The notes under the pieces are model-generated. The model was not told where the DNA came from and ran no database searches. It worked only from the letters and a program-made list of their open reading frames with translations. From contig NW_024881561.1 in the NCBI RefSeq assembly GCF_019059575.1, positions 496,001 through 560,000 of the forward strand: 64,000 bases of DNA, given 5' to 3'. The stretch is from Amphibalanus amphitrite (lineage: Eukaryota; Arthropoda; Thecostraca; Balanomorpha; Balanidae). This document shows positions 24,538-47,000 of the stretch, piece after piece (within the stretch, counting starts at the first letter, position 1; every line of letters starts with the position of its first letter). The position numbers and the translations under genes are program-made.

Positions 24538-27500
24538 ATGACTGAGAGCGCCACCGGCGCCGCCGCCAGCTCAGCCGACTCGGCCGCCGCCAACGAGGGC
24601 AGACTGGGTGAGAGCGTCGCGCCGGTCGATGGCGCTGGGGAGGCCGCCGACGCCGACAGAGCCGACGGGTCAGAGCAGGTGGGTGCCGCCAGCGAGCAGG
24701 GCCACCGCCAGGAGCGCGGCGCCACCGGGGACGACGGAGCACAGCCGGCCCCGGCGCCACAGGAGACTGAGAAGGAGCAGGATCCACTGGAGCAGCAGGA
24801 GCTAGACGAGGCGCAGCTCTCCCCTGATTCTGACGAAGGTGAAGGAGTGAACAAGGAGCTGCCCGACTGCAAGCTGAAGCGCACTTACTACTGCAAGAAG
24901 TGTCCGTTTACCACGCGAAACCCGCGTGAATTTCTGTATCATCAGAAGGACGTGCACAGCATACGTCTTCAAATCAACGAGTGCCCTCACTGCATCTACG
25001 CCTCAAGGTGTAAACTCAAACTAAACCGGCATCTGCGCATGGTTCACGAGGACGCGAAGCCAGCGAAGATGGAAGAATCCCCGGAGAAAGGTCCTCTGAC
25101 CATCGTCAGCGAACCTTCGCCCGTCAGAGAAGAAGAGGATGAGGAGGGCATTGAAGAGGAGGAAGTCGAGGAAAGTCTGTACTCTTTGAAGGACTACGGA
25201 GACATGGACGGGGAAATTCTGAAAGAGGAGGACGTCAGGGATGAACCCCAAACAAGCCGCTCCTCCAAATCGCGCAGCGAGCTTAAGAAGAAGTTCTACC
25301 GCTGCTCAAAGTGCCAATACATGACGCACATCAAGTCGCGTTTCACGAAGCACGTTAAGTACCACTCGATGCCGATGATCAAGTGCGAGCTGTGCGAATT
25401 TCGCACACCGTACAAGTGGAACCTGGACCGGCACATGAAAAATCACACTGGCAGCGGTGAGTTCCAGTGCAACCAGTGCAGCTTCTCGGCGCACATCAAG
25501 CAGAGTCTGACGGTGCATATCCAGAACCACCACCTGCCGGCCAGCCAGGTGCTGGAAAAGCTGCGCGCCAAGTGCAACGTCGGCGGCTCGGACGCCATGG
25601 ACCACAGCGGCTCCGAGGAGGTGCTGGATGTGGACGAGGAGGAGCTCCTTCGGCTGGAGCGCGAGGAAGAGTCTGAGGACGAGGAGACCGAAAAGAAGGT
25701 CAGGACCAAGGAACCTGCCAAGCCCAAGGTGAAGCCGACGGCACGCAAGACGGCGCCGGCCAGCCGTTCGAACGCCGACTCCGCCGAGCGTCACGACTTT
25801 GACAAGGACTTTGTTCACCCTGACGATGTGGTGGAGAAGAACGGCCGCGTCTACATCAAGGACCTCAAATGCTCGGTGTGCAGCTACAAGACGCTGTACG
25901 AGAAGGACTTGCTGCGTCACGAGTACTCCCAGCACGGTGTGGTACGTAACGGCATCATCCCTCCGGTGTTCACCCCGCCGCAGAAACCGTCTCCGGTGGC
26001 GGCGCCCGGCCGCACCGGAGCCGCCACAGCCACTTCGGTGGCCTCCACTGCCTCCGCCACAGTCGTCTCGCCCGCCTCCTCGGCTGCCACCTCCGGGTCT
26101 TCGTCCGTCGCCGGATCCTCCTCGGCATCGGTAGAGAAGCCGAAGCCGAAGCGGCCTCCGCCGAGCCTGATCCCGCTGCAGGGCCGGCAGGACAAGGACG
26201 GCGAGGAGTCGGCCGAGGCGGCCGAGGACGCGCCTGCCGACGGCGACTCGCCCGAGGCCGTGGCCATGAACGAGCGCGCCGAGCGGGCCGCCGAGGAGTT
26301 TTTGTCGGCCCGCTCGGACGGCGCCGGGCCCCAGTCGGTGCTCGACCGGCTCTTCACGCAGAAAATGGCGGCTGCTGGGGCCAGTGATACGACCAAGGCG
26401 GACGAGCCGAAACTGGCGAGCGGCGAGCGGCAGGCGTCGCGGCCGACCTCGACCCGGTGTCAGTACTGCCGTCATCGTTGTAAGACCACCGACGACCTTC
26501 GCACCCATCAGAAGAGCTGCCCGGAGGCCCCGGCCTCCGCTGCCACCGCTGGCGCTGAGGCCGACTCTCAGAAGCAGGTGTTTGTGTGGAACTCTGCCTC
26601 CGGGAGCGGCGACGCTCCGTCGGAGGGCAGCGCGCCGGCAGTCAGGGAGAGCAGGACGGTGGCCGAAGCGGCCGCTGATGACGAGGGTGGTGATGCGTCT
26701 CACGCCGACAACGGCTCGCCTCAGACGCGCTCGCACGGTCCCCCGACTCGGGGCGACGGGGAGGCCAAGCTGGTCACCCGGCGTGTGTTCAAGTGTCCGA
26801 ACTGCACGTTCTGGGCCACCACGGCGTCCCGGTTCCACGTGCACCTGGTCGGCCACATGAACATGAAGCCGTACGAGTGCACTGAGTGCGGCTACCGCTC
26901 CAACTGGCGCTGGGACATCACCAAACACATCAAACTCAAGTCGGCCAAAGACCGCAGCCACCTGCGCGCCAAGCTCTTCATCAACGACGGCGGCAGCACG
27001 CGTGACTACGACAAGTACGACATCTACCTGGAGTACATGCAGGTGGAGGAGGGACTCCAGTGCAAGCCCCAGATCAGCTCCTCGGTGCGGAAGCGCAGCA
27101 GCCCCGGCTCGCTGGGCCCGCAGCCGGGCTCGTCGCCGCTGTCTGCGCCGTCCGTGTCGCCGCGGCCGCCGCTGCCGCTCCGGCCCGGGGTGCCGGTGCC
27201 GCCCAATGTGACGGTGCGCAGTCCGTTCAGCGGCACGCTGCCGCTCTACGAGCCGCCGCTGATTGGTAACCCTCCACTCGCCCGGATGCCGATGCCGCCG
27301 CGACTGACGCGCGCGCCGCTGGGCCCGGCGCGGCCCGGCGCGCCGCCGCCGCCGTTCCGTCCGGCGGCTGCCTTCAAGCAGCCGGTGCTGGACCTGCCGT
27401 TCGGGGCGCGCGGCGTGCTGCTGCCGGGCGTGCGGCTGCCGGGCGTGCCCGTGAGCGGCGTGCCGGGCGTGGTGCGGCCGCTGGCGCCGGCGCCCTCGCT

Positions 27501-27674
27501 GGAGTCGCTGAAGCGGATGGACCCGACGCTGGCCGCCATGGGCATCACGGACGAGAACACGGCTATCGTGATGCCGGAGCCGCCGCCGGACGCCGCCGCC
27601 GGACAGGGCTCAGGGCAGGCCGCCGGCGGAGCCAAGAAACCCACCGTCTGGCGCTGCAAAAAGTGCAACTTCAA
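24538..27674 (+). CDS. Zinc-finger gene, coding exon 1
   Basis: 1,045 codons plus two bases. Residues 1-115 are acidic and Ala-rich. Fingers start near residues 118, 148, 254, 281, 309, 443, 640 (C2HC-like, final KSC), 751 and 779. The ninth is followed by a conserved-looking basic/aromatic extension (SNWRWDITKHIKLK, then DYDKYDIYLEY). Residues about 870-1030 are Pro-rich. It ends inside a finger, at CKKCNF plus AA, with donor GTGAGT, so the histidine half of that finger must come from the next exon. The acceptor at 24526-24528 marks the exon's left end at 24529. Confidence 0.92.
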
Positions 27675-30600
27675 GTGAGTACCTATCGGGAGGGGTTGGA
27701 TACGGGTGGGCCGTTGGCATGTCTGTTGAAGAGTCTGTAGCGGAAGTATTAACTTTGATATCAGTTGGGTGTTATATGAGTGGTTTATTAGCGTATTTAT
27801 GAGCCTATTTAGAACACTACAGACCAGCGCTCACTTACACCTGCAGTCGGTAAACGTTCGTTACTGGTACACAATAAAACGACAGCTCAGTCGTGTCCAT
27901 AACGACAGTCGCCGCAGGCGGGGTGGAGACATAACACTGAAACTAAAACGACAGGGTGGCAAAGCTGCTCCCGCTGCCGTTCTATTGTCTTGTCTCACGA
28001 CCTCTGTGTTGATATTTTTCAATGCATCAAGTGTAATCTGCATTTAGATGCATCGTTTGAAGTAGTCCAACAGAGGTAGGCTACCCAAGGCGCAAATTAG
28101 TCGTGCTTAGGGGATGTGTTAGATAAAGCGCTGCTGCATGGGCGGCTGGTGCGTGGTACCGGACCGTTTTTGTTGTGCTTGTGTTCGTCGGGCCTGTCTT
28201 CTACCCCTTACTTCCCTCTAAAGAAGTGTTCATGATGTCGCTGCGCCGCTCGTATTCGTCACATTCTGAGCGTGTGTTTTCAGACACAAGGACCGGAGGA
28301 TGATGCTAGCCCACGTGGCCAAGCACACCAACCGCGAAAAGTACAACTGCGGCCACTGCGGCAAGCCGTCCAACTGGCAGAGTGTGATCCGGGTAACTGA
28401 CCTCGGCGCGGCGGCCCTGTGACCTCCCGTGACCTCTCCCGCAGCGGTGGCGGCTGCGACTGACGGTGGCAGCTCGCTCCAACTAAATACCTACTGACTC
28501 CGCTTCTCTCGATGGTCTCTTTCAGGTGTGCACGCCGGTTCTGATCTTTCGTCTGTACCTTTAATACTAACCTCTGTAGTTCTCGAACAGGGACATTCGG
28601 GACTCTCACACCCCGGCCGGCCGTTCTCGCAGGTTGCGCGCGGCTCTCACCTCTCCCTCTCGGCTCTCGCCGCTCTGACTCGGTGGCGGCTGCCCTCTCA
28701 CTCTCTCCCGCTCCCCCCTCTGCCCGTCTTGGTAGGCACGCCGACAGGGAGGTGGTGCGCGCCCACTACCGCTCTCACAATGCCCCCTACATGTGCGGCC
28801 ACTGCGGCCAGGGATCCAAGTGGAAGCATGTCCTTCAGGTGGGTGCCTCACGCGCGTGCCTTTCGGAAGTCATTCGCCACCCTCCTCAACTCACCCAATC
28901 GCTTTGCTCCAACTCACTTTATTCGCCTAGTTTCCGCCCCATCGCTCCGCATCGCCAATTATTTTCGTATTTCACACATTATCCACACACAGACTTGCCC
29001 CGTCCGATCCCGTCCCGTCTGGCTCTGGTGTGGGCTCGTCCCATTCCGTCCCTTTAGTTCCCGTCACTGTCTCATTTATAGGTATGTTCCTCTGCCTGGG
29101 ATCAGCGCCTTGTGTCACATCCTCATCTGTTAGGAACGACTTCTGTTGCACTAGAATTCTAGCATGCTCCTTCTAGGTAATATAACGGGTGAAGGAACCG
29201 GTAGATAGGCATCAACTCACCAAAAATGTGTGGATTGCAGTACGCAACATGTCACAAGTTGACAAAATGTATGCTGATTGTATTTATTCTTTATCATACC
29301 TACTATTGTTCGTTTGCTGTTCCTATTTCTACTTCAGTTTCAATTTTTGTAGATGAAGTCGTCTTTGGCTCAGCAGTGACGTGACAGTGCCCCCAATCGT
29401 AACGTAACATGTCGCGTAACTTGTGTTGTAACAACTAACATGTCTTATCAAGCACAGCGGCGCCGTGCCAGACAGCTGCGTCGAGTGTAGCAGCCTCTAT
29501 CTGTAATGTCTGTTAGCGGCGGAGACCTCCGCTAGTGTGTTGGGTAACCCTTCTCCGTCTGTTCAAACGTAACCATTTCCCTAGGGTAATCGTCACTCAT
29601 TTCTTCAGTAACCATTTCCCATGTCGGTTTTGTAATCGTGTAATCTGTTTAGTCCCTACCCGTTTCCCGTCAGTTTGGTAACCCGTTTCCGTCCGTGTGG
29701 TGACCGTTTCCCTTCTGTGCGGCAGCGCCATTGTCGTATGAAGCACAACGGCAACGTGTCAGTGGTGGAGAACAGGGTGGAGACGGAGGGCGGGCCAGGT
29801 CCGCAGCAGGCGCAGGCGCAGAAGCAGCGGGCCGCCTCGGACGTCACCATCTCCGTGGTCAACAAACAGGGAGGAAACGGTACGGGAAACGTGGCAACTC
29901 ACAGGGAGGAAACGGTACGGGAAACACGGCTAATAACAGGGAGGAAACGGTACGGGAAACATGGCTAATAACAGGGAGGAAACGGTACGGGAAACACGGC
30001 TAATAAAAGGGAGGAAACGGCACGGGACTCAACAAACAGGGAGGAAACGGTACGGGAACCACGATCAACAAACAGGGAGGCATCGGTACGGAAACATAAT
30101 CGGACAGCTGCGTGACGGCTCGTACGCATCGGGTCTCTAGGCATTACGGTCGCGACTACGTTACTGTCGTTATTTTCTGTCAGTGGCTTATGGGATGAAC
30201 CAACTGGTAGGCTGTGACTGACGATAGACACATCGGCAAACTGGTTACCGAGGTCAGTGTAACTGTTTGAAGGAGCCATTTGGTTACAATTCTCCTGATC
30301 AACTGAGTGTCAACTATGTGTGCTGGCAGGCTCGGTGGGCGCCTCGTTCCGCTGCGACATCTGCTCCTACACGTGCGCCAACAACGACGAGACGATATCG
30401 GCGCACATGCAGCACCACACGCCGCAGCCCGGCGCCACATTCAAGTGCATCCTCTGCCCCTTCTACGTCTCAACCAAAAAGTACGTACTGCGACGACTGA
30501 GTTATGTCTCGGTTGATACGCCAGAGGGTAACGTCACTCGTAAACGGTCTTACAAGATGTAAGATTGTGCCAAAGCTAGTTGCCCTAATTGTACATCCAA

Positions 30601-33600
30601 ATGACCGCATACATGTGGATTACAGATGACTAAGTGACTGTCAGTGACTTAATGATTATCTGTTCCGTCCTTAAAATTCCAACAAACAGTGTTCTAGCTC
30701 CTGACCTGACCTTCCACGCTCGCTGTCCCACAGGGCGCTCTCTGACCACATGCTGCTCCATGGTGTGACGTCACCGCAGCAGTTTGTGACGCAAAAGGGC
30801 CCCAATTCGGCCGGAGGCACCCCGTCGACACCCACAGCCCAGCAGGTATGTCGGCTGGGTCAGACAGGTTAAATAGGGTCACTAGGGTCAAACGAACTTA
30901 GTGTGTTAAGCGGGGCCATACGCGTCGAACGGTGTCGAGATCAGAGAAAGAAACTGGATACGTTGTTGGTCATTGGTCATTGTACCTATCTCTACGTGTA
31001 TCTTTCATATATTTGATTTCAGTTCGTTGTGAAAGTCTCCTGAAACACCTTGTCTTTCTTCCCCGACCCCGTTTGAATCGTTTGCCTTATCGTGTCGTGT
31101 TGATCCCCCTTTTTGGGATAGTTCGAACAGATGTGCTGTATTTTGTTCCGCTCAGTATCGTTTCTCCTTGTTTTGAATAGTAAGCCGTTACGTCGTGTTT
31201 CACTGACCCTATTTTCTCTCTCCCTTTTCTGGCCAGTTTGAGCCGGTCGATTTCATCCAGGCGGGTCCAGCGGAGGCGCAGAGCGCCAACAAGCCGTTCC
31301 GGTGCACGCAGTGTCCGTTCGCCACGGACCAGAAGAGCCAGTTCCAGTACCACCGGCAGTACCACGTACCGCGCGGCATGCCGTACCGCTGCCCGGCCTG
31401 CTCGTACTCGGTCCAGCAGCGCAGCCACCTGATCGCTCACGCCCGGCTGCACGGCCTGCAGCCGCGGCCGAGCGCGACCAACAGCGACAAGCCGAAGCGG
31501 GCGCTGCTGAAGCCGGAGAGAAGCACTGTGGCCGGCCCCGTGCTGAGGGACGCCGACACTCGGCACATGGACGAGGTGCCCCTCGTCTGGGTCTCCCGCG
31601 GGGGCAAGTTCTTCAAGATGTTCAAGTGCCGCCAGTGTCCGCACGTGAACCTACGCAAGAGCAACATCCAGGACCACGAGAAGATGCACACGGACCGCGA
31701 CCTGGCCGGGTACGCGCACCGCTGCACCAAGTGCAACTACGTGTGCATCAACGCCGGCGTGCTGTCGGGCCACCTCAAGGTGCACACCTACTGGCTTGGC
31801 AAGATCCACGCCGTGGTGGACATGAAGCGCAGTGACGAGGAGCAGCTGCGCGAGATCCTGGGCGAGGACGCCGCCAGCGACGTGGAGGTGGTGCTGGACA
31901 GGTCGCTGCCGGCGCCGGTGGCCACCTCTACTGCCTCCACCGGCCCGACGGCGGCCGCGGACGCGGCGAGCGCGGCCGACCCGCAGCGCATCCTCTACTT
32001 CTGTCAGCACTGCCCAGCGCGCTTCTTCCACGACAACGAGATCAAGATCCACTCTCGGTTCCACGGTATGAACCTGCCGTTCACGTGTCAGAAGTGCAGC
32101 TACACGGCGCGCCAGCACCCGCACCTGTTGGCCCACCTGAAGGTGCACTCGGACGAGTACCGTGACCGGACGCGCTCCCTGCTGCTCATCTACACCAGCT
32201 CCCCGGACCACCCGCCGCGCGGCGCCGCCCCGGCCGCGCCCCCAGCCCCGCCGGCGTCACAGGCGACCTCCTCGCCCAAGCGGACCACCCCGTCCCCGGC
32301 GCCGGGGACAGCGTCCTCCCCTGCCACTGTGACGGCGGCGGCCGGCCTGCCGGACGTCCCGGCGCCCTCGGCCAGTCCGTCTCAGCCGGCGGCCGGTGCC
32401 GACACCACGCCAGCAGCCGGGACGGAGCCCGAGACGACTCCCACCGCTGGGGCAGGGTCCTCCCCCTCCCGGGCCTCGCCGACGCCCAAAACGGCGTGGA
32501 AGGTGAAACGGTTCACGTGCAGCCAGTGTCCGGCGCGGTTTGTGAAAGAGGCCACGCTGCGCTACCACATCTCACTGCACGGCAGTAACGGGCCGTTCCG
32601 CTGCGACCGCTGCAACTATGCCGTGAAGACGTACGGCAACCTAGTACAGCATCTGAACCTGCACACAGAGTCCGACCTGGCCGGTACGTGGGGGCACGGG
32701 GCTGACACACAGCCGCTGGGTAGGGGAAAGGACACGGTCTGCGGACGGTCCGGGTATTAGCATCGAAGTTAGCACGCCAAATTAATGCCGCGTAACGATA
32801 TGGAACCATTGATAGAGCTATACTTTGTCTTACGACTGTCTTACGACATGATTTTTAACATTTGCTACCTTTGTGGCAACTTGTCTGTCAATCAGTTTTG
32901 ATCATGAGTCACACGACTGTCAATAGCGTAAACCACACTGTTTCTCTGATCGCTCCACCGTGCTGCAATGACCCAGTCTTGCTAACCTCCCGCCCATCCC
33001 GGCAGGCGACACCAGCAGCCGGCGGTCCTCGCCAGACGCCGACGTGGGCCGCTTCAGGGCCTCCGCCAACGACTTCCCCATGTCCGGCGTGGACCTGCTG
33101 AAGCGCAAGCTGGACTTCGAGAAGGAGCACCTGGGCGAGCTGAACGAGAACAACCTTCCGTCGCGTAAGGTGATGCGGTTCGCGCCGCCCAGCATGGACC
33201 CCGCCAGCCCGTACTACGCTGAACGGGCCGGAAACCCGGACTTCGCCTACCCGACCGTGCTCGACCGGTACGGCCGGGAGCGCGAGAAACGCTACAAGTG
33301 CCGCCGCTGCCCGTCCGCCTTCGAGAAGCGCGAGCAGTACATCAAGCACATCAACCTGCACGGCGTGCAGAACCGTTACACCTGCTCCATCTGCGACTAC
33401 TCTGTCAAATACTACCCCAACTTCTGCAACCACATGAAGCGGCACGGCATCCGGCCGCCGCCGATGGACGAGGCGGCCAGCGCCACCGTCTCCGGCCAGG
33501 ACTCGGGATCCAACTCGCCGCGGCCCGGCGGAGCAGGGGGCGAGTCGCCGCGGCCGGCCGGCGGCAGGGGGGCCGCCTTCACGGGCGCGCCAGAGCTGAC

Positions 33601-35234
33601 CACGGCTGAGCGGCAGCAGCTGGTGCTGCAGCGCGTCAGGGAGGAACAAGACGCCCTCAAGGGTGAGTGGGAACCGGTGGTGGGGAGGGGAGGGGAGGGA
33701 GACTGAGGGGGGGGGGATAGCGCTGAGGGCGAGCGCGGGCCACAGGGCGCACGGCTTTGGGCTACAGTGGGGACTGGCGAGTCTGGAAGATGGCGAGACT
33801 GGTACCCAGTACCCATGTGATGTTAAAATCGATATAATAAATCGGAACACCAGCCCACATGTTTCTCACGGTAACTCGTCTCCTACAATCCGATGCTTTT
33901 CTGCCTCTGGTTGACGCTTCATCGTCGTAAAAATCGCATTGGGACTGTAACCCGGTCCGAAGCACTCGCTCCCATTGGGCCGCACCTGACCGCTGATCCG
34001 CCCTGTTGCAGAGGACTCTGAGCCGCCGCGCAAGGTGCACTGGTGTGAGCTGTGTCCGTACGCCAACGTACGGCGCGATACGACCGAGAACCACCGGTGG
34101 CGTCACCTGTTCTACGGCGGTCCGCGCGGGCCCATCAGCTGCGGCTACTGCGACTTTTCCGCCCAGCAGAGCCACCTGATGCGCGACCACTACAAGGTCC
34201 ACTTCCGACCCTGCAAGTACATCAAGGTGGAGTCGTACACGGAGCTCGTCAAGCTGGAGGTGTTCATGAAGGAGGTCAACGTGCAGGAGGAGGACGCCGT
34301 GAGTGCTCTCGGGGCTTCAAAACTGTGTCGGGGAGCTGGATGGAATGGTGTTGGAGTTATTGTTCCGAGTGATAGCGCTGTTTTTTTTTTTTTAAGTTTA
34401 CTTTCATACTTTTTCGTATTGACTACTCAAGATTTGTTGGGATAAAAAAGTAAAGTCAACGTCCATATAACCGCTCCGCGACTTCATTCGTCATGCTTTT
34501 GTTCATTGTTTGCATGAAAGCTCCTCAAACTTATCTTACCTCATCAATTAAGTTTTGCTTTTCTGTGACCATAAACCACCCTCTGACACTGACCTGTTCC
34601 CCCTCAGGAGATTCTGGAGGACGCCTGTGAGGACGTGGACGTCTCCACGCACGACGTGTTGTTCGCCGCCTCCGACTGGGACGAGACGCGACCGGAGCCG
34701 GAGCTGACACCCGGCGAGCCGCCCGTGCTCGTGGACGTCTTCACCGGCGACTTTGTCAGCGAGAAACGCGCCGAGAACGGCGAGACTGCAGACCGGGCTG
34801 AGGAAGAGCCCGACCAGAAGAGGGTGAAGCTGGAGAGTAAGGAGAAGGAGGCGTCACCCGACCAGGAGCCGGACCAGGAGGAGGTGGCGGGCGGAGACGC
34901 CGAGGACGCGGCGGTGAAGGACGAGGAGGCCAGTGATCTCCCCGATGGAGACAAGACTGACGACGTGGCAGAGGAAGCCACAGAAGAAGCCGTAGAGGAT
35001 GCAGCAGAGAATGCCGACGCCGGCGACTCGACAGAGGTGGCTGAGGATGGTGACGGTGATGTCAAAATGGAGGCGGAGGAAGTCGAAGACGCCGCCGCCG
35101 CCGAGGAGGACAGTCCGGCCGCGGAGACGGCTGAGGTCGGCGAGCAGGCGGGAGAGGACCGGGAGGAGGATACCCAGGAGGAGGAGGAGGACATGCCGCA
35201 GGAGCCGCTGGAGGACCCTCTGGCGGCCGACTAG
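24538..35234 (+). CDS. 25-finger C2H2 zinc-finger protein, nine coding exons per transcript
   Basis: A nuclear C2H2 protein, presumably a DNA-binding transcription regulator. Exons are 24538-27674, then either 28284-28392 or 28736-28838, then 29726-29879, 30330-30480, 30734-30845, 31237-32683, 33006-33662, 34012-34298 and 34608-35234. Every junction has GT/AG ends and phases close exactly, giving 2,226 or 2,224 residues. I count 25 fingers: nine complete and one split in exon 1, the rest across later exons, often in closely spaced pairs. Ala/Pro/Ser-rich and acidic linkers separate them, and the C-terminus is a long Glu/Asp-rich tail. The ATG at 24538 follows an acceptor (TTGCTCACAG) by nine bases, so at least one 5' UTR exon lies upstream. 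The finger layout and the NWRWDITKHIKLK motif recall insect charlatan/REST-like proteins, but I cannot confirm orthology. Confidence 0.9.
28284..28392 (+). CDS. Zinc-finger gene, alternative exon 2a
   Basis: 109 nt, entered in phase 2 after GTGTGTTTTCAG and left in phase 0 before GTAACT. It supplies the H-x3-H half of the finger begun in exon 1 (HVAKH) and the CGHC half of the next (CGHCGKPSNWQSV). The linker between the two fingers has the canonical seven residues. It is a homologue of the exon at 28736-28838. Confidence 0.88.
28736..28838 (+). CDS. Zinc-finger gene, alternative exon 2b
   Basis: 103 nt with the same entry phase (2) and exit phase (0) as 28284-28392. A strong pyrimidine tract ends in CTTGGTAG and the donor is GTGGGT. 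It encodes the equivalent half-fingers (HYRSH and CGHCGQGSKWKHV) but with a linker two residues shorter and different specificity-helix residues. Using both 2a and 2b in one transcript shifts the frame and meets a TGA in the exon at 30734, so the two should be mutually exclusive. Confidence 0.85.
29726..29879 (+). CDS. Zinc-finger gene, coding exon 3
   Basis: 154 nt after GTGCGGCAG. It begins with RHCRMKH, which completes the finger started in either alternative exon (C-x2-C-x12-H-x4-H), followed by a Gln/Ala-rich linker. It ends in phase 1 at AAACG|GTACGG. The donor and preceding exon bases are reiterated downstream in a minisatellite. Confidence 0.87.
29862..30095 (+). repeat. Minisatellite made of the exon 3 splice-donor junction
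   Basis: About seven tandem copies of a CAGGGAGGAAACGGTACGGG-type unit (about 28-38 bp each). The first copy is the real exon end and donor (AAACG|GTACGG); the rest lie in the intron and most retain the donor word. Confidence 0.88.
30330..30480 (+). CDS. Zinc-finger gene, coding exon 4
   Basis: 151 nt, acceptor GTGCTGGCAG, donor AAAAA|GTACGT. It encodes one complete finger (FRCDICSYT...HMQHH) and the cysteine half of another (FKCILCPFYVSTK). Phase 1 in, phase 2 out. Confidence 0.88.
30734..30845 (+). CDS. Zinc-finger gene, coding exon 5
   Basis: 112 nt, acceptor TGTCCCACAG, donor CAG|GTATGT. It supplies the histidine half (HMLLH) of the finger from the previous exon, then a Ser/Thr/Pro/Gln-rich linker. 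Confidence 0.87.
31237..32683 (+). CDS. Zinc-finger gene, coding exon 6
   Basis: 1,447 nt, acceptor TTTTCTGGCCAG, donor GGCCG|GTACGT. Eight fingers: two pairs in the first 500 nt, then two more after an acidic Ala-rich linker, then, after a Pro/Ala/Thr-rich stretch of about 110 residues, a final pair. Each pair is joined by a short G-MP or NLP/NGP linker (for example HGMNLPFTC, HGSNGPFRC). Confidence 0.9.
33006..33662 (+). CDS. Zinc-finger gene, coding exon 7
   Basis: 657 nt, acceptor CATCCCGGCAG, donor AAGG|GTGAGT. It begins with a Ser/Arg-rich segment and a charged region (LLKRKLDFEKEHLGEL), then a finger pair (YKCRRC..., YTCSIC...) and a Gly/Pro/Ser linker. Phase 1 in, phase 1 out. Confidence 0.9.
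34012..34298 (+). CDS. Zinc-finger gene, coding exon 8
   Basis: 287 nt, acceptor CCTGTTGCAG, donor GCC|GTGAGT. It encodes the last finger pair (HWCELCPYA... and ISCGYCDFSA...HYKVH) and the start of the acidic tail. Confidence 0.9.
34608..35234 (+). CDS. Zinc-finger gene, last coding exon (acidic tail)
   Basis: 627 nt after a strong acceptor (TTCCCCCTCAG), ending at TAG 35232-35234. It encodes 208 residues dominated by Glu, Asp and Ala, with one basic patch (DQKRVKLESKEKE) that could be a nuclear-localisation or SUMO-type site (VKLE). No fingers. Confidence 0.9.
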   Translation, partial: EILEDACEDVDVSTHDVLFAASDWDETRPEPELTPGEPPVLVDVFTGDFVSEKRAENGETADRAEEEPDQKRVKLESKEKEASPDQEPDQEEVAGGDAEDAAVKDEEASDLPDGDKTDDVAEEATEEAVEDAAENADAGDSTEVAEDGDGDVKMEAEEVEDAAAAEEDSPAAETAEVGEQAGEDREEDTQEEEEDMPQEPLEDPLAAD

Positions 35235-38002: not shown

Positions 38003-41000
38003 CTGGCGGCGGTGACAGCGAATGCGGGCTGCGTCAGTGGGGGCGGGGGACCGTGCGGCAGTGGAAGGGGGCGACAGCGGGGAGACTGGCCGTGAACTCA
38101 GTAGGGGAAAGGTGCGCCAAACCACCAACAGTCCGGGTGACGCTGATGGGGGGACGTAGGTCGATGTCTTGGTTATTTTAGTTCACCCACTACCAGCGTC
38201 GAAGCATCACCTAACTCTGCATTCATCGGTCATCTATCGAAACAGGCTATCTGTTTTTAAGTCGCGACAACAGGGTACGGGCATGCTAAGATCTAACACA
38301 AAGCCAGGATAAAAAACGACACAATATCTACCACCAACATCGACCCAATATTTTCACTGCCATCCGTACAAAACAACAGCTATCACTATAAGACCAAACC
38401 GCAGAGCACCCGGCCGAAGGGTTGCGGAGAGTGACAAACAGGAAACGCCCTGGTTACCCAGCGGAGCCCTCGGGTCGGTGGAACTTTGCTGAAGGAGCCT
38501 CCGGCGGGCGTGGGGGAGGAAGGAGGTGGTGAGGGGCGCTACGTCACGTGGGGTGATGTAACGTCAGACATGTGACCGGCCGTGGGGTTAGCCCGCTCGG
38601 AGCACCTCGCAGCTGGCCGGGGCTGCAGCGGTGGTTCGGGTGGAGGAGAAACGGAACAGCCTCCAGCATGGGTAGACATGGGCATACTGAGGGACCAACA
38701 TACGAACTAACAGCCGTGAATCAACAAAGCCCACAACCAGACCGACTCATAGACCCTCACAAGCAGACAGCTGGACGGACGGAGGGACGGACGAAGGGAC
38801 GGACAGACGGATCCAGATTGTCACACTGCCACTGGGACTCTCAGTCCCTAAGGTCCGCAGGTCGCTGACGAGAGCAGCTGCGTCAACCAGCTCATACCAC
38901 CTCACTTATACCACCATATCAACACCCATTCCTGGGAACGAGAAACAAAACCCCCGGCGTATGCAAGCATCGGGAGCCCCTTCCAGTCCTTCCCCAGGTA
39001 TCCCCCATCGCCCCCTCCGGCGATGGGGGATAACTGTCCGGGAACCTCCGAGTCCGGGAACCCTGAACCCCTGACACACCGTCGCAGCACCGTGCCCTCA
39101 CCGTGACTGCGAGCTGGGGTCAAAGTCGTCCAGGTGGACGTCCTCGACGTGCGCGCCGCTCGGCTTGGTGAAGGCCGGCCGGGGCGGCAGCAGCGGCTCC
39201 AGCTTCGGGTACACCGACTCGGGCGCCCACTGGTTCTCCGGGAAGTCGACGTCGAAGCGCACGTACAGGTTGCCCTTGTCGAACGGCGAGCGGTGGATGG
39301 GGAAGCCCTCTCCGCGCACACCGCGGCGGGTGCCTGGGGGCACAGCGACCGGTCAGAGGAGCGGGCAGCACACCGCTGGTGGGGATAGACACCATACTCG
39401 GAAATCAACGAAGGCACCCGGGTACAAACATAGAGAACTGGGCAACGCAGTTCTAACCTGAAAGGTTCAATTCACTTACGCACTCGCCAAAGATGAACTT
39501 TTCACGTTGTTACATTTCAGTCATTTCAGCTGAATTTCAGTTAACATCGTCATTTCAGTTGCTCGTACATTTCAGTTGTTACATCTATATTGACACTAAA
39601 CTGAAGTACTTATGGGAAATGGCGAGAAAGTAACCAGATGAAAATGCTAAGCGCCCAGCATGCTGTCCGTAATTTAACGCTGTTGTCCACAGACCACAAC
39701 ACGTCTATCATACATGGAAACCCGCGCCAATCTACCAATCTCCAGTCCTGAAATTGCTTACGGGTCCTCACGTCTCTGCATTGTGCCCATCGGGTCTCGA
39801 GTTCCGTCTGGGGCCGCTCTCATAACTCACTGTGTCCTCTGGAGCCGCCCCAGCGTTCAAGGTGTCCTATGCCCTCCCCCCCATTCACCGTACCCCCAAG
39901 GCCGCCCTCCGTTCTTACCTGGGGCCAGCACTGCCTTCTCCGGGCCAGTCCCCGACTGCACTCACCATACTCTCTCAATCCAACCTCGGGTCTCACCTCA
40001 GGTGAGACCTCAGGTGAGACTGGCGCCGGCACTGTGCCCTCTGGAGTCGCCCCCTCACCCCCCTCACCTCTCACTGTACCCTCTGGGGTCATCCCCTCAG
40101 CTCTCACCTGGCGCCAGCACTGTTCCCTCTGGGGTCGTCCCCTCAGCTCTCACCTGGCGCCAGCACCGTTCCCTCTGGGGTCGTCCCCTCAGCTCTCACC
40201 TGGCGCCAGCACCGTTCCCTCTGGGGTCGTCCCCTCAGCTCTCACCTGGCGCCAGCACCGTTCCCTCTGGGGTCGTCCCCTCAGCTCTCACCTGGCGCCA
40301 GCACTGTGCCCGGCTCTGAGGAGATCACCACAGTTCGGTCGTCCAGGTGCTTGATCGGGATTTGGAATCCGCACAGCGACTCCGTCAGAGAGATCTTCTT
40401 GGTCATGTACAGATCCTGCGGGCAGACAGAGGGAAGCGGTGAACCTAGAGATCTTCTTGGTCATATACAGATCCTGCGGGCGAAGTAGAGGGAAGGAGTG
40501 AACACAGAGGTCTTTTTGGTCATGTACAGATCCTGTGGGAGACCGAACACCCAGTGCCTCATTGAGTTTGAAATGTGCATCGCTGACTATTCCCACCCAT
40601 TCTGATGATAGAGCAAACGCCGCCGCTGCCGCCGCTGTGATGGAACCGGCGCGCACAAATAGATGTGTCAACACCGGTCAAGGTCCGACATAAGCGTAAA
40701 CAGAGCCTGAGTCGGGCCGAAGCTCAGCCAATGTGAATATATCCCCGGCGAGCATATTTTCGGCTCGCCGCAGCGTCGCGTCAGTGGGATGGTCGTCAAG
40801 GCATGGGACGGGCGTGTATTTACCACTTATTGTGCTTTCTGGGCCTAAATATGACCTCGACAGCATACTTACAGAAAGCTATGAACGTATGCTCGTCCCA
40901 AGCACAAAAGTCTCTCAGCCAGTGTTTGGCCCTAACCACAGCCATCCCCTCATGCATGGTACCAGACCTATAGCTTCCCGGTTGAGTTCGGCCGCCGGCT

Positions 41001-44000
41001 GTCGAACGTGGAACCGCGGACGATCGCCGCCCAACTGACATCCAACTGGACCACTGGTGACTTAATTCAGCCCGAATTTTGCGAGTGGAAGACGCCGGAG
41101 GCGACTATGCAACAGGTGTATTCCCAACGGATGAGTGTTGAAGATGAGCAACATAAATAAAAATAATGATATGTACCTTTATTTATTTCTATAGAACCGT
41201 TTATTTTTGCGGATGTCTTATGATTAGCACATGCATACATTTACGACCACGAGGAACAACGCGCAAAAGTCGTCGAAATAAAGGCAAGGAAGCCGTTGAC
41301 AATGGGAAGAAAAGTGCACCGATGTGTGCTTAGCCATACTAAGGTTGATGAAACGGTGGAAACCACCATACGCTACCTATCACACAAACCTGATCTTATC
41401 ATCAGGAGATTTACGAATGAACACAAACATTATAGGCAGTGAATAAAAGTCACATACATGTAATTCATACATGTGATTCACCGCATAACGACGTCGCATG
41501 AAAATAAACCCCAACCAAAGGCAGTCAAAATCCGGCGCTCATCAAACCCAGCCGGGTGGTCGGGCACAGCCAGTTTTCCGGAGTCCCCCCGCGCGCTATC
41601 ACCACCGCGCAGCTCCGTACCGGGACAATCCAGAGGACGGCGGCGAGGGCCCGCCACCGCGGCGGACTTCCCGGACCGGCCCGCAGCCGCCGCTCCGGCC
41701 CACGGACTGCGAGACGGGGCCGACAGCGCGGCGGCCCGCCCACGCCGTACGACAAACCCGGGGAGCGGCGACCCGGCGCACTACACGGTGCGCGTCAGCC
41801 GAGTGGAGGCCACGCCGAGCACCACCAGCGGCTGGTCACGGTGGAACTCCACCATGCCGTCCAGCGAGTCGAACGACGCCTCGTCCTCCTTGGCCTGGCC
41901 GAGTGCCAGCCGGCCGTCGGCGCGCCGGCGGACCGGCAGGTGACGACACCCGCCCGCCAGCGCCACGGACAGCGTGGCCACGCACCCGGGCTTGGTGGTG
42001 GGCCGCACGAGGAAGGAGCCGTCGGTCCGGCCGTGCAGCAGGCGCTCGGCCCGGCCGCGGTGCACGTCGCGGTACCAGGGCCGCTGGTCGGCGCGGTCCG
42101 GCTCCGACTCCGTGCTGTGCCGGTTCGCAGAGCGGTCCAGACCGGCGGTGGCGCGCTCCTGCAGCGAGGTGCTCGAGCCGATCGACGACAGAGAGCAGGA
42201 GGAGCCGAGCGGGTCCGCGCCGCGCACCGACAGCCTGCCGGCCGCCTGGCGGCGCTGCAGCGCCTGTGCCAGCGCCAGCGACAGCGGCGGCGGCGGCGGG
42301 GACGGCGGCAGGGACGGCGGCGACCCGGACAGCTCGGTCGACCGCTGCTTCATCCGGCGCTCCGCGGCAGCGTCCGGTGACGGCGGATCGGCGTGCCAGC
42401 CAAAGGCAGCGGTCACCGAGCGCGCCGGACTGGCGGCCCGCGGCGGCGGCTCCGTGATTCTGATAGGTGCGGCAGCGCCGGCGGGCCGCGGGGGTACACC
42501 TGCCGACCTGGACGGCACGGCGGGAGCAGCCGACAGCGGCTGGGAGTTGGCCGGCTTTCTGGCGGGCACGGCGGGAGCTACCTCATGTGACTGCGGACCC
42601 GCCGCCCTTCTGACGGGCAATCGCGACTGAAGCTCTGCCGGCCTCCTGGCGGGCGGCGCGGGGGCGACAGGAGGCGGCTCTGAGCCCGCCGCCCTTCTGA
42701 CCGGCAGCCGCGACTGGTCCGGCGCCCCTCTGACGGCCTGTGTGGGGACGAGACGCGGCGGCCTGGGGTCGGCCGCCCTCCTCACCGGCACCGGTGGACT
42801 GACTGCGCTCGGCTCTGGCGCTGCTGGTGGATACTGCCGCTCCATTGCCAGATATTCGGGCCCGCTCATATCGATGTAGTCTTCCTCGAACGCAGCCCCG
42901 TCAATGGTCGTATAGGCCGGGTCCACTTCATATCCATTCATGGCCATATACCCCAGGTCCGACTCGAGTCCATTCATGGCCATATATCCCGGGTCCGATT
43001 CGAGTCCATTCATGGTCATGTAACCCGGGTCCGATTCGGGTGCGTTCATGGTCATATAGCGCTGGTCCCCATCTGCGCCCGGCTTACACATGACCAGGTA
43101 CTCCTGCTCGACGGCTGGGGCGGGGCTGGTCGATCGGCGACCGAGCCCCGGCGGCCGCGGCGGGTGCCGGCCGCTCGGTTTCGGCGGTCGCGGCGGCGCG
43201 GCTCCGGCAGACTCCGCGGACGGCAGCGGCGCGGCGCGCGCCCACCGCTGCCCGCTGTGGACGGCCGTATCGCTGGCCGACGAGCCGCTGCGGTTCACGG
43301 CGTGCCGTTCGGCCGTCCTCTGTCCCCGGGCGGCGCCGCGCGCCGGCCGACCCGGCTCGGGCGCGGGCAGGTCGGACGGCGGCCGCGGCAGGCAGCCGCC
43401 CGGACCGCGGGTGGGCGCGGGCGGCGCCAGGCCGCCGCCCAGCCGCCGCTCCCAGCCGGCCACCCGGCCACTCATGGCGCTCTCCTCTGGACCGGAGAGC
43501 CGCGGGGACCAGACACACGCTGACACCCGACTGCTACGCCGACAGCCGCTGACACACGCTGACACCCTGAGGCCAGACTTTTCCTGCGCCGAGTCCCGCT
43601 GGCACACCCAGACACCAGACTGTTCCCGCGCCGAGTCCCGCTGAGACACCCAGACACCAGACTGCTCCTGCGCCGACTGACGCGACTAGGGTCGAACGCC
43701 AGCGGCGCCGTCCGCCGTTCGCCCGGCTATCTTTACCACATCCCGCCGGTCAGCGCAGCCAGAGCGGACGGGCGCCGCGGCTCCGGAGCCGCCAGGGGAA
43801 GGCCACGACACGCCGTCAGCTTCCGGCGGGCGCAGCGCAGCCGCCGGGACAACAGAAGGGGGGACACCACGGGACAATCCGCGGAAACCCTCCCAGCCAG
43901 GGACAGTCTGCCTGCCGCTGGGGGTAGCCGCGAGGTATTCCAGCCGAACACATCATAGGGGGGTCCACCCACGGTGACTGGTTCGTACCCACGGTGACTG

Positions 44001-47000
44001 GTTCGTACCCACGGCGACTGACGGCCGCAGCTCATCGCCGCACCCGATAACTAAAAGCACCGCACCGAATCGTCAGTTCTTGTTGCAGAATCATGAACTT
44101 CAGTTGCTTCAGGAGATACAATGACGATACATTTGGAACTTGAGTACCATGCTCGCACGCAGATATTTCGAACTGAATCAGTTCTAACGCGCTAAGTAAT
44201 TACATAAATGATGTAGTTAATTCGTCAACGTGTCCCGAAACCTGTGTTTTATTTTTGTTTTCTGCAAAGTTTTGAGCTCTCAATATACCTTGACCCCAAA
44301 CGGGAAGACCGAGCTAAGCCCAACTTTGCAATTACCCAATAAACAGATGTTCATTTCGACTCAACCTTGGACGCTTGAAGCAGACGGCAACAGTAGTCAG
44401 CCACGCGAGAATGGCCACGCGAGAAAACACCTGTCATCCTTCCCAATCAGGATGCTTCAGTTTAGCTGCTGTTCAGTCATGTCTTTCCCAACTCCCATGT
44501 TTGCATCTCTAGGATCAAATGCGTGTATGGAAGAGAATCATTAAACCCAGAGAGAAGAAAGTGGAGCAGGAACCCGCCTCAGTATAAGCAATGGACGACG
44601 TCTTTGTCATAGACCAAAATATCACGCCAAGAACATACAACTCTTCCTGCAGTCTTCCGCAGAGTACCTGAAGACCGACGCATGAGTACCAAATACTCTA
44701 AGGAGGGTGTTAGCTGTGATGTGGATTCACTTCGTTGATCGTGTTGCGCTCAAATTTGCCCGCTCATTGTGTTCGTACTCACCCTGTTCACTGTTCAGCC
44801 CCATTTTGTGTTGGAATTACATACATGAGTGATTCACTGGAACTTTGGAGATCTCGTCCATCATCCAAAAAGAACAGCTTTGCTGTACATGTCATCAATG
44901 AGTTGCTGGTGTTTTCATGCAACGCGAATTAAACTTTCCGTCAGACTGCCAGGAAGCCACACGGTTGATTGCCGAGGGGAATTTGACAATAACACATGAT
45001 AACATCAATAAATAGAATACAGCCCACGGAGCGGCCAGCCAGCAGCTGAGCGCCGTGTGCCTGTGGCGCTACTCACGTGCCCTTCCCGCTGGAACACCTC
45101 GTGCGGCACCTGCTGCAGCACCACGATCACGTCGCCGGGCTCGATGCCGGGCTTCTGGTTCCCCTCGCCGCGGAACGAGATCTTCTGGCCATCCCGCATA
45201 CCCTTGTCCACGTGCACCTGAGGAGACACACAGAGAGACACGGAGTGACGGGACCTGTCTCCGACACACAGAGAGGCACGGGGTGACGGGACCTGTCTCC
45301 GACACAGGGACACGGCACGGGGTGACGGGACCTGTCTCCGACACACAGAGACACGGGACGGAACCTGTCTCCGACACCCAGGGAGACACGGGGTGACGGG
45401 GCCCGTCTCCGACACACAGAGAGACACCGGGGGGGGGGGGGACGGGACCTGTCTCCGACACACAGAGAAACACGGGGTGACGGGACCTGTCTCCGACACA
45501 CAGACACGGGGTGACGGGACCTGTCTCCGACACACAGACACGGTACGGGACCTGTCTCCGACACAGAGGCACGGGACTGGACCTGTCCCCGACACATAGA
45601 GACACGGGGTGACGGGACCTGTCTCCGACACACAGAGAGACACGGAGTGACGGGACCTGTCTCCGACACACAGAGAGACACGGAGTGACGGGACCTGTCT
45701 CCGACACAGAGAGAGGCACGGGGTGACGGGACCTGTCTCCGACACACAGGGACACGGGGTGACGGGACCTGTCTCCGACACACAGAGACACGGGACGGAA
45801 CCTGTCTCCGACACCCAGGGAGACACGGGGTGACGGGGCCCGTCTCCGACACAGAGAGAGACACGGGGTGACGGGACCTGTCTCCGACACAGAGAGAGAT
45901 ACGGGGTGACGGGACCTGTCTCCGACACACACAGAGCCGTGGCGGTGACGGGACCTGTCTGGATTAAAGACAACACCATAAAGAGAAGAGATGCAAGCAG
46001 GTAATGCCTTAGGGAAAATGAGTTGTTGGGTTGAGTTGCTAAGCATACCAGGCAACACTCAAATAATAAAGGCAACATAATATGTCCAATGCTTTTTATC
46101 ACTCGCTAAACATGCATCACATGAACAGGAAAAATTAGCAACTGCAGATCTGAGATTCCCATGGAGAGCTGCAGTCTCAATAAAATAAACAACGCTGCTA
46201 AAACTAACTGAAAAAAGTACCGGAGTAAATGCAACGAAATAATGTTTTGTGATATAGAGACAGCTCATGACATACGAGGCCGGATCAAGCCAGGACGGCA
46301 TTTTATAGACGGCCTGCCCAATACCCCCATTTCAACCCTCCCATAATGCTGTGCCGACCGACTGCCCGCCGTGCGTACCTCCAGTATTTTGACCTCGCTG
46401 GTGGTCTTTTGGCCGTGGCAGGCGCGGCAGCGGTCGCGCTCATTCATCAGCTCGCCCTCGCCGTGACAGTCGGAGCACATGACCTGCTTGTGCTGCACCA
46501 TGCCGGGCCCGATCTGGCGCGTGTGCAGCTTGATGCCGCGTCCGTGGCAGCCGCGGCACGGCTCGGGCGCCTTTCCCGAGCGGCCGCCCGTGCCGCCACA
46601 CGCCGCGCACACCACCGACTTGCTCAGCTGCAGCTTGGACGTCTTGCCGTTATACAGGTCCTCCAGTGTGACCCTGCGGTGGAGAGGGGTCAGTCACTGC
46701 TACAGCCTGGACGCCTTGCAGGTCCTACAGTGTGACCCTGCGTTAGAGAGGGGTCAGTCACTGCTGCGGCCTCCAGTGTGACCCTGCGGTGGAGAGGGGG
46801 TCAGACACTGCTGCGGCCCACAGTGTGACCCTGTGGTAGAGAGGGGGTCAGTAACTGCTGCAGCCTCCGATGTGAACCTATGGTAGAGAGGGGGTCAGGT
46901 CAGCTGTCATCATCAGAGGGCTCTTCACGGGCCATGTGTGCTGTAGGACCGCACACAGCCTCCAAGCTCCGCCCACTGCGTCCCTACGTCAGCCTTCCGT

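Follow-up and report, generated by a model that had tools for sequence, protein, structure and literature searches.

Two neighbouring exons of a polydactyl C2H2 zinc-finger gene, exon A (positions 28284–28392) and exon B (28736–28838), appear to form a mutually exclusive, tandem-duplicated pair, a reading of the genomic sequence to which we give a probability of about 0.8. Positions are those of the window, by which we mean the whole stretch of 64,000 nucleotides that was analysed. Mutual exclusion is strongly supported by the anatomy of the locus, namely the shared 2–0 phase, the homology of the duplicates and the premature stops that are predicted when both exons or neither are included, together with purifying selection on both exons. 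Use of each exon in RNA, regulation of the choice between them and an effect on binding are inferred.

In the mechanism that we propose, exons A and B would have arisen by tandem duplication and would be used mutually exclusively. The upstream exon would provide the C-x2-C knuckle of finger 9; the chosen exon would provide the finger 9 helix with its H-x3-H, then the linker and, for finger 10, the C-x2-C and the greater part of the helix; and the downstream exon would provide the end of that helix with both histidines. Transcripts with double inclusion or a double skip would end early, leading to decay or to a truncated protein. The swap would change positions 2 and 3 in the helix of finger 9 and position 2 in that of finger 10, and would shorten the linker from a canonical-length seven residues to five, most likely retuning the docking of the finger pair on DNA or on a partner; a regulator would still be needed to choose A or B. 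At somewhat less than even odds, we suggest that a single splicing choice, by rebuilding two fingers and the linker between them, gives a 25-finger factor two geometries, each with its own target set, in which to dock its central pair, the reading frame making the choice all-or-none.

Gene model and homology of the exon pair

The gene lies on the forward strand, from an ATG at 24538 to a TAG ending at 35234, in an exon model that was read from the sequence and comprises the coding exons from the ATG on; spliced translation gives 2,226 amino acids for isoform A and 2,224 for isoform B. The common upstream exon (24538–27674) runs from the ATG to a phase-2 donor, CAA/GTGAGT, and supplies the C-x2-C of finger 9. 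It is followed by the intron preceding exon A (27675–28283), exon A itself, the intron between the two exons (28393–28735), exon B and the intron that leads to the next common exon (28839–29725). This next exon (29726–29879, phase 0 to 1) carries, for finger 10, position 6 of the helix and the two histidines. Further common exons encode finger 11 and the first part of finger 12 (30330–30480), the remainder of finger 12 (30734–30845), eight strict C2H2 fingers (31237–32683, where Pfam zf-C2H2 and REST-like C2H2 models score above cut-off), two fingers (33006–33662) and another two (34012–34298), and the final coding exon (34608–35234) encodes an acidic C-terminus with the natural TAG at its end. 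The protein pattern C-x2-C-x12-H-x3-5-H is matched by 24 fingers in either isoform, and one odd finger (CTECGY, residue 781) has a distant second histidine. Fingers are numbered by the strict list, in which the junction fingers are 9 and 10; Pfam finger models match these two only below curated cut-offs in both isoforms, and the strict pattern fits them. An intron also interrupts finger 12, again in phase 2 and behind its C-x2-C half; compared with the interruption of finger 9, it lies five residues further in.

Exon A is bounded by TTTTCAG/ACAC and CGG/GTAACT, and exon B by TTGGTAG/GCAC and CAG/GTGGGT, all following the GT-AG rule, and the splice sites and phases bear out the initial annotation in describing two tandem exons of 109 and 103 nt that enter in phase 2 and leave in phase 0. 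The acceptor of the next common exon is GGCAG/CGCCAT, and A or B alike reads out into CGC CAT TGT. Exon A encodes the finger 9 helix together with its H-x3-H, the linker TNREKYN and, for finger 10, the C-x2-C and the greater part of the helix; exon B encodes the same structural piece with the linker NAPYM, so the contrast of seven against five linker residues was correctly drawn. Either exon also completes both junction fingers with x12 before the histidines, as had been claimed: finger 9 reads C-x2-C-x12-H-x3-H and finger 10 C-x2-C-x12-H-x4-H in both isoforms. The expected consequences of the two wrong choices were reproduced on translation, joint inclusion of A and B ending at a TGA at 30743, within the exon at 30734, after 1,221 residues, and the skipping of both breaking the frame and ending at a TGA at 29739, within the exon at 29726, after 1,050 residues; both outcomes leave several exon junctions downstream. 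Because each exon is asymmetric (phase 2 in, phase 0 out), the frame is kept, given these splice sites, only in transcripts that carry a single copy, A or B. The two are thus neighbouring exons of similar length (109 and 103 nt), with GT-AG borders and equal phases.

A published predictor of mutually exclusive exons uses similar length, the same phase, homology and the lack of a stop as its criteria, features that on the D. melanogaster X chromosome were shared by 90 of 16,180 other exons (0.56%; PMC3228551), and we modelled our own enumeration on its idea. All open segments between an AG and a GT in the phase of exon A, and within 20 nt of its length, were taken from both strands of the 64 kb (n = 1,853). 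The exon B peptide scored 86 against that of exon A, 41% of the self-score of A (208), compared with 10 (5%) for the best non-overlapping segment; the remaining high scorers were overlapping variants of A or B, and B is the only A-like segment among the 1,853. The two peptides share 16 of 35 aligned residues. Among 78 pairs of finger-pair units A–B also ranks first, although so narrowly (79 versus 77) that this ranking alone proves little.

No third copy was seen in the nine introns of the gene, where none of 119 candidates for A and none of 132 for B scored above zero, nor did exons A, B, 29726, 30330, 30734, 33006 or 34012 have other hidden duplicates in these introns (exon 33006 yielded no candidates, and exons 24538, 31237 and the last exon were left out of this search). 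When the gene region was scanned for the motif, a single stray H..C match turned up, intronic, at 29598, which is absent from the list for the second haplotype. The source genome (807.55 Mb, 2,644 contigs) has intron-containing genes and is evidently animal-like. When it was searched with a 52-residue isoform A query, 150 of 703 candidates were scored and gave 14 matches: the A and B exons on two contigs (four), the finger 8 unit of both gene copies (two) and eight finger regions at 27–35% identity. Among these 150 of 703 candidates there was no further A-like exon pair. The finger block of the first exon, compared with the collections viral_contigs and genome_contigs, which contain no animal genomes, gave 1 and 26 pattern matches, respectively, and no confirmed relative.

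Effect of the exchange on fingers 9 and 10

The contact positions of a C2H2 helix are, by the canonical numbering, −1, 2, 3 and 6. Finger 9 has Asp, Arg, Met and Ala at these positions in isoform A and Asp, Glu, Val and Ala in isoform B; finger 10 has Trp, Ser, Val and Arg in A and Trp, His, Val and Arg in B, position 6 coming from the common exon. Three of the eight positions therefore differ, namely positions 2 and 3 of finger 9 and position 2 of finger 10. The suggestion that the exchange alters the DNA-binding specificity of two neighbouring fingers stands to that extent, and a change in specificity is plausible from the residues, but the suggestion was overstated, the larger change being in the length of the linker. 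The ten other linkers listed (shorter than 15 residues) have 6, 7, 7, 7, 7, 8, 8, 9, 11 and 11 residues, which makes NAPYM, with five, the shortest.

In a sequence search of the PDB, the alignments of isoform A with PRDM9 (5v3g, E = 1.2e-14) and with Aart (2i13) were gapless, and chains of ZNF568 and CTCF were also matched, judged by their equal lengths. Isoform B matched the same PRDM9 chain with a better score (2.2e-16), but with a two-residue gap at the linker. A chain of SNAI1 (3w5k, 155–200) matched B, likewise judged by equal length, so the five-residue linker is probably not without parallel.

The KTS insertion of WT1, which changes an inter-finger linker, reportedly arises from an alternative donor. 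The likeness to our exon pair is that splicing alters the length of a C2H2 inter-finger linker, and we claim no relation to WT1; in WT1 three residues are added, with no exon swap and no exchange of helices. The linker here (seven versus five by sequence) is splice-dependent in the same sense if both isoforms are made. Because the +KTS form is described as having an affinity lowered about 24-fold for oligonucleotides with C or 5mC (PMC4201290), we weigh a switch in geometry or affinity as at least as likely as one in specificity.

It is also quite possible that the pair is mutually exclusive and that the exchange tunes a protein or RNA interaction rather than the choice of DNA, in which case fingers 9 and 10 may not touch DNA at all. 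This reading is a rival on function and is compatible with mutual exclusion. It draws on the constancy of positions −1 and 6 of both fingers and of position 3 of finger 10, on the Trp at position −1 of finger 10 and on the linkers, among which, as listed, one begins with TG (TGSGEFQ) and none has the full TGEKP. The gapless alignment of isoform A with the DNA-binding arrays of PRDM9 and Aart, the equal-length matches to ZNF568 and CTCF, and the differences at positions 2 and 3 of finger 9 argue in the opposite direction.

Should the two isoforms both be made, a single transcription factor would have two binding modes and, because the exon boundaries fall inside fingers and not between them, the other 23 fingers would be untouched, a number given in the initial annotation that holds if the odd finger CTECGY is counted, the strict list having 24 in total. 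In mammals, FOXP1 has mutually exclusive exons, 18 and 18b, within its DNA-binding domain, the choice between which alters DNA motif preference, according to a review (PMC11701043); the position of the exons is alike, but in FOXP1 a single forkhead domain is altered in place of C2H2 zinc fingers. Exons 4A and 4B of Drosophila serpent (srp), an arthropod transcription factor, are described as mutually exclusive and thought to have been duplicated from a zinc-finger exon (PMC8844375). The finger of srp is of the GATA type, however, and 4B, which has no known motif, makes a presence/absence switch, whereas both copies here keep the residues of two C2H2 half-fingers. Our exon pair resembles mutually exclusive clusters in general in length, phase, homology and the lack of a stop (PMC3228551), and in the loss of frame on joint inclusion (PMC5740500), and differs from them in that the exon borders cut two zinc fingers, so that a single exchange remakes two domains together with the spacer between them. 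None of the titles and abstract openings among the matches listed from the open-licence literature described a mutually exclusive choice of exons by which the halves of two C2H2 fingers are exchanged. The pair would provide a clean natural test of the contributions of linker length and of helix positions 2 and 3 to binding by polydactyl fingers, and of whether frame logic alone enforces exclusive splicing, and it suggests a simple genome-wide screen for asymmetric tandem exons whose borders cut pairs of fingers.

A second gene copy and selection on both exons

The source genome contains one further close match to the two-exon stretch, with 92% identity across it, on contig 153. Judged on 60 kb of that contig, the copy is colinear through the gene and its neighbours, with blocks of more than 400 bp between window positions 2943 and 53543 that cover 38,340 of the 64,000 bases. 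We consider it probably the other haplotype, and refer to it as such, the alternative being a recent duplication; comparable divergence has been recorded in a barnacle (median 5.3% over 66 genes; PMC8270832). In the second copy both isoforms are open (2,224 and 2,222 residues) and GT and AG are kept at all nine introns. These introns differ between haplotypes by 2.7–18.7% substitutions and 16–402 gap columns, whereas neither A nor B has an indel and each differs by two substitutions.

None of the four substitutions in the two exons changes an amino acid (probability by chance 0.0017, given the proportion of sites that are synonymous). The synonymous divergence of A (9.4%) and that of B (9.5%) are similar to that of the long first exon (10.6%), which shows that the two exons are not simply poor in mutations and that the constraint is on the protein, not on the DNA as such. 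At synonymous rates 15.9 or 18.6 nonsynonymous changes would be expected in A and B together, and none was observed (P = 1.3e-7 and 8.5e-9). With the rate of the intron between A and B as the yardstick the expectation falls to 8.0 (P = 3.5e-4); this intron is among the less diverged (4.75%), and so the test is weaker when measured against it. For each exon alone there were no nonsynonymous changes against 3.8–9.6 expected (P = 7e-5 to 0.02). The sample for these tests was one species and two haplotypes, with 42.3 synonymous sites in A and B together. It seems most likely, from the sequence comparison, that both exons are under protein-level selection and that neither is dead-looking.

These results bear on an alternative in which the normal transcript uses one of the exons, and including the two together or omitting both serves as a regulated shut-off, acting through nonsense-mediated decay or through a protein with only the N-terminal fingers. 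Both wrong outcomes do end at early stops with several exon junctions downstream, and reads joining the exons are recorded in 22% of human clusters with exons not divisible by three (PMC5740500). A poison exon, however, needs no conserved finger residues, and A and B both keep the spacing of their cysteines and histidines, with no nonsynonymous haplotype changes, so we consider such a switch unlikely. It is quite improbable that one exon is used and the other is a fossil or unused duplicate. The acceptor of exon A would suit this idea, being poorer in pyrimidines (0.63) than that of exon B (0.83) and having an AG 11 nt upstream, but the lack of nonsynonymous change in each exon, at ordinary synonymous divergence and with no indel, implies protein-level selection on both and counts strongly against a dead duplicate. 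Polydactyl proteins have expanded by tandem duplications of finger-coding sequence, but an enlargement of the array here, with both exons used by way of an unnoticed frame-restoring splice site, is very improbable because, with the sites seen, the phase-0 exit of A does not fit the phase-2 entry of B, the half-finger of B is left incomplete and the shifted frame runs to the stop at 30743.

In the acidic C-terminal exon (34608–35234) the haplotypes show 31 nonsynonymous and 10 synonymous differences (pN 0.0645, pS 0.074), a figure that is close to no protein constraint and that alignment gaps may inflate.

Enforcement of exclusion and neighbouring features

Branch sites follow the pattern yUnAy, and a search for it in the last 160 nt of the A–B intron placed branch-like sites 35–127 nt before exon B, which puts them at least about 215 nt beyond the exon A donor. 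The human criterion for steric hindrance is a distance from donor to branch point of under 50 (PMC5740500), and with an intron of 343 nt steric exclusion is unlikely. Incompatibility of U2- and U12-type sites is likewise unlikely: none of the nine donors is of the U12 type by eye, and all introns are GT-AG in both haplotypes. Exons not divisible by three occur in 60% of human mutually exclusive clusters, and 9% of the clusters appear to be under steric constraint (PMC5740500). By analogy with these clusters, loss of frame followed by decay would be sufficient to enforce exclusion of the mutually exclusive pair, and is a common means of doing so.

Several features of the introns could be read by a regulator. 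The AG-free zone that precedes exon B spans 101 nt in both haplotypes, more than at the acceptor of any other of the nine introns, and the A–B intron contains 16 CU motifs (15 in the other haplotype), the highest density among the nine introns in both; a count of 16 was reached by 37 of 500 dinucleotide shuffles and reflects composition, not proof. CU-rich tracts suit a PTB-like repressor, and the tract before exon B would suit PTB-like repression of that exon. Two runs identical between haplotypes, one of 80 nt (27998–28077) lying wholly within the intron before exon A, which differs by 8.5%, and one of 95 nt (28342–28436) that takes in the last part of exon A together with 44 nt of the next intron, are candidate control elements.

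Docking-type pairing, as in docking/selector clusters of the Dscam type, was scanned for in the three intron pairs I1–I2, I1–I3 and I2–I3 with 60-nt windows, the best duplexes were compared in both haplotypes and the region 27600–29800 was folded in both; the controls were 120 shuffles of the window introns and all 36 pairs of the nine introns, giving 33 control pairs. The I1–I3 duplex (−58.1 kcal/mol) was reached by none of 120 shuffles, yet two of the 33 control pairs were stronger (−66.2 and −62.4); the I1–I2 duplex (−54.3) was reached by two of 120 shuffles and the I2–I3 duplex (−45.7) by 20 of 120. The best values in the second haplotype were −51.5, −48.9 and −50.0 for I1–I2, I1–I3 and I2–I3, respectively, with −56.1 for I1–I3 in the aligned window. 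Two helices of at least four pairs and spanning more than 150 nt were shared by the folds of the two haplotypes, 27739–27744 with 28499–28504 (P 0.39 and 0.47) and 28741–28756, at the start of exon B, with 29611–29627 (P 0.95 and 0.40). Docking-type pairing does not clearly stand out from that of other intron pairs in the gene, and an I1–I3 stem, which would enclose both exons, would not obviously help in choosing one of them.

A 35-bp minisatellite (29860–30097) starts inside the end of the exon 29726–29879 and repeats its donor region, so that near-copies of the 5′ splice site recur. The unit GGAGGAAACGGTACGG and near forms of it occur in seven copies, 30–36 bp apart, one of them without the GT. 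The intron that follows this exon measures 450 nt here and 850 nt in the other haplotype, a difference of 400 nt, and length variation could affect the choice of donor.

On the reverse strand, a single open frame of 622 residues (41781–43649) contains tandem YM-x-MNG motifs, encoded by a 36-bp minisatellite (42933–43058), and a C-terminal SH2 domain (Pfam E = 8.9e-8); from its sequence, the product looks like an adaptor with YxxM docking repeats. Exon-like stretches on the same strand (39100–45220) resemble, by eye, a DnaJ-A (Hsp40) gene, in an intron of which the SH2/YxxM frame would sit, and a 38-bp minisatellite (45225–45960) adjoins the DnaJ-A-like stretch.
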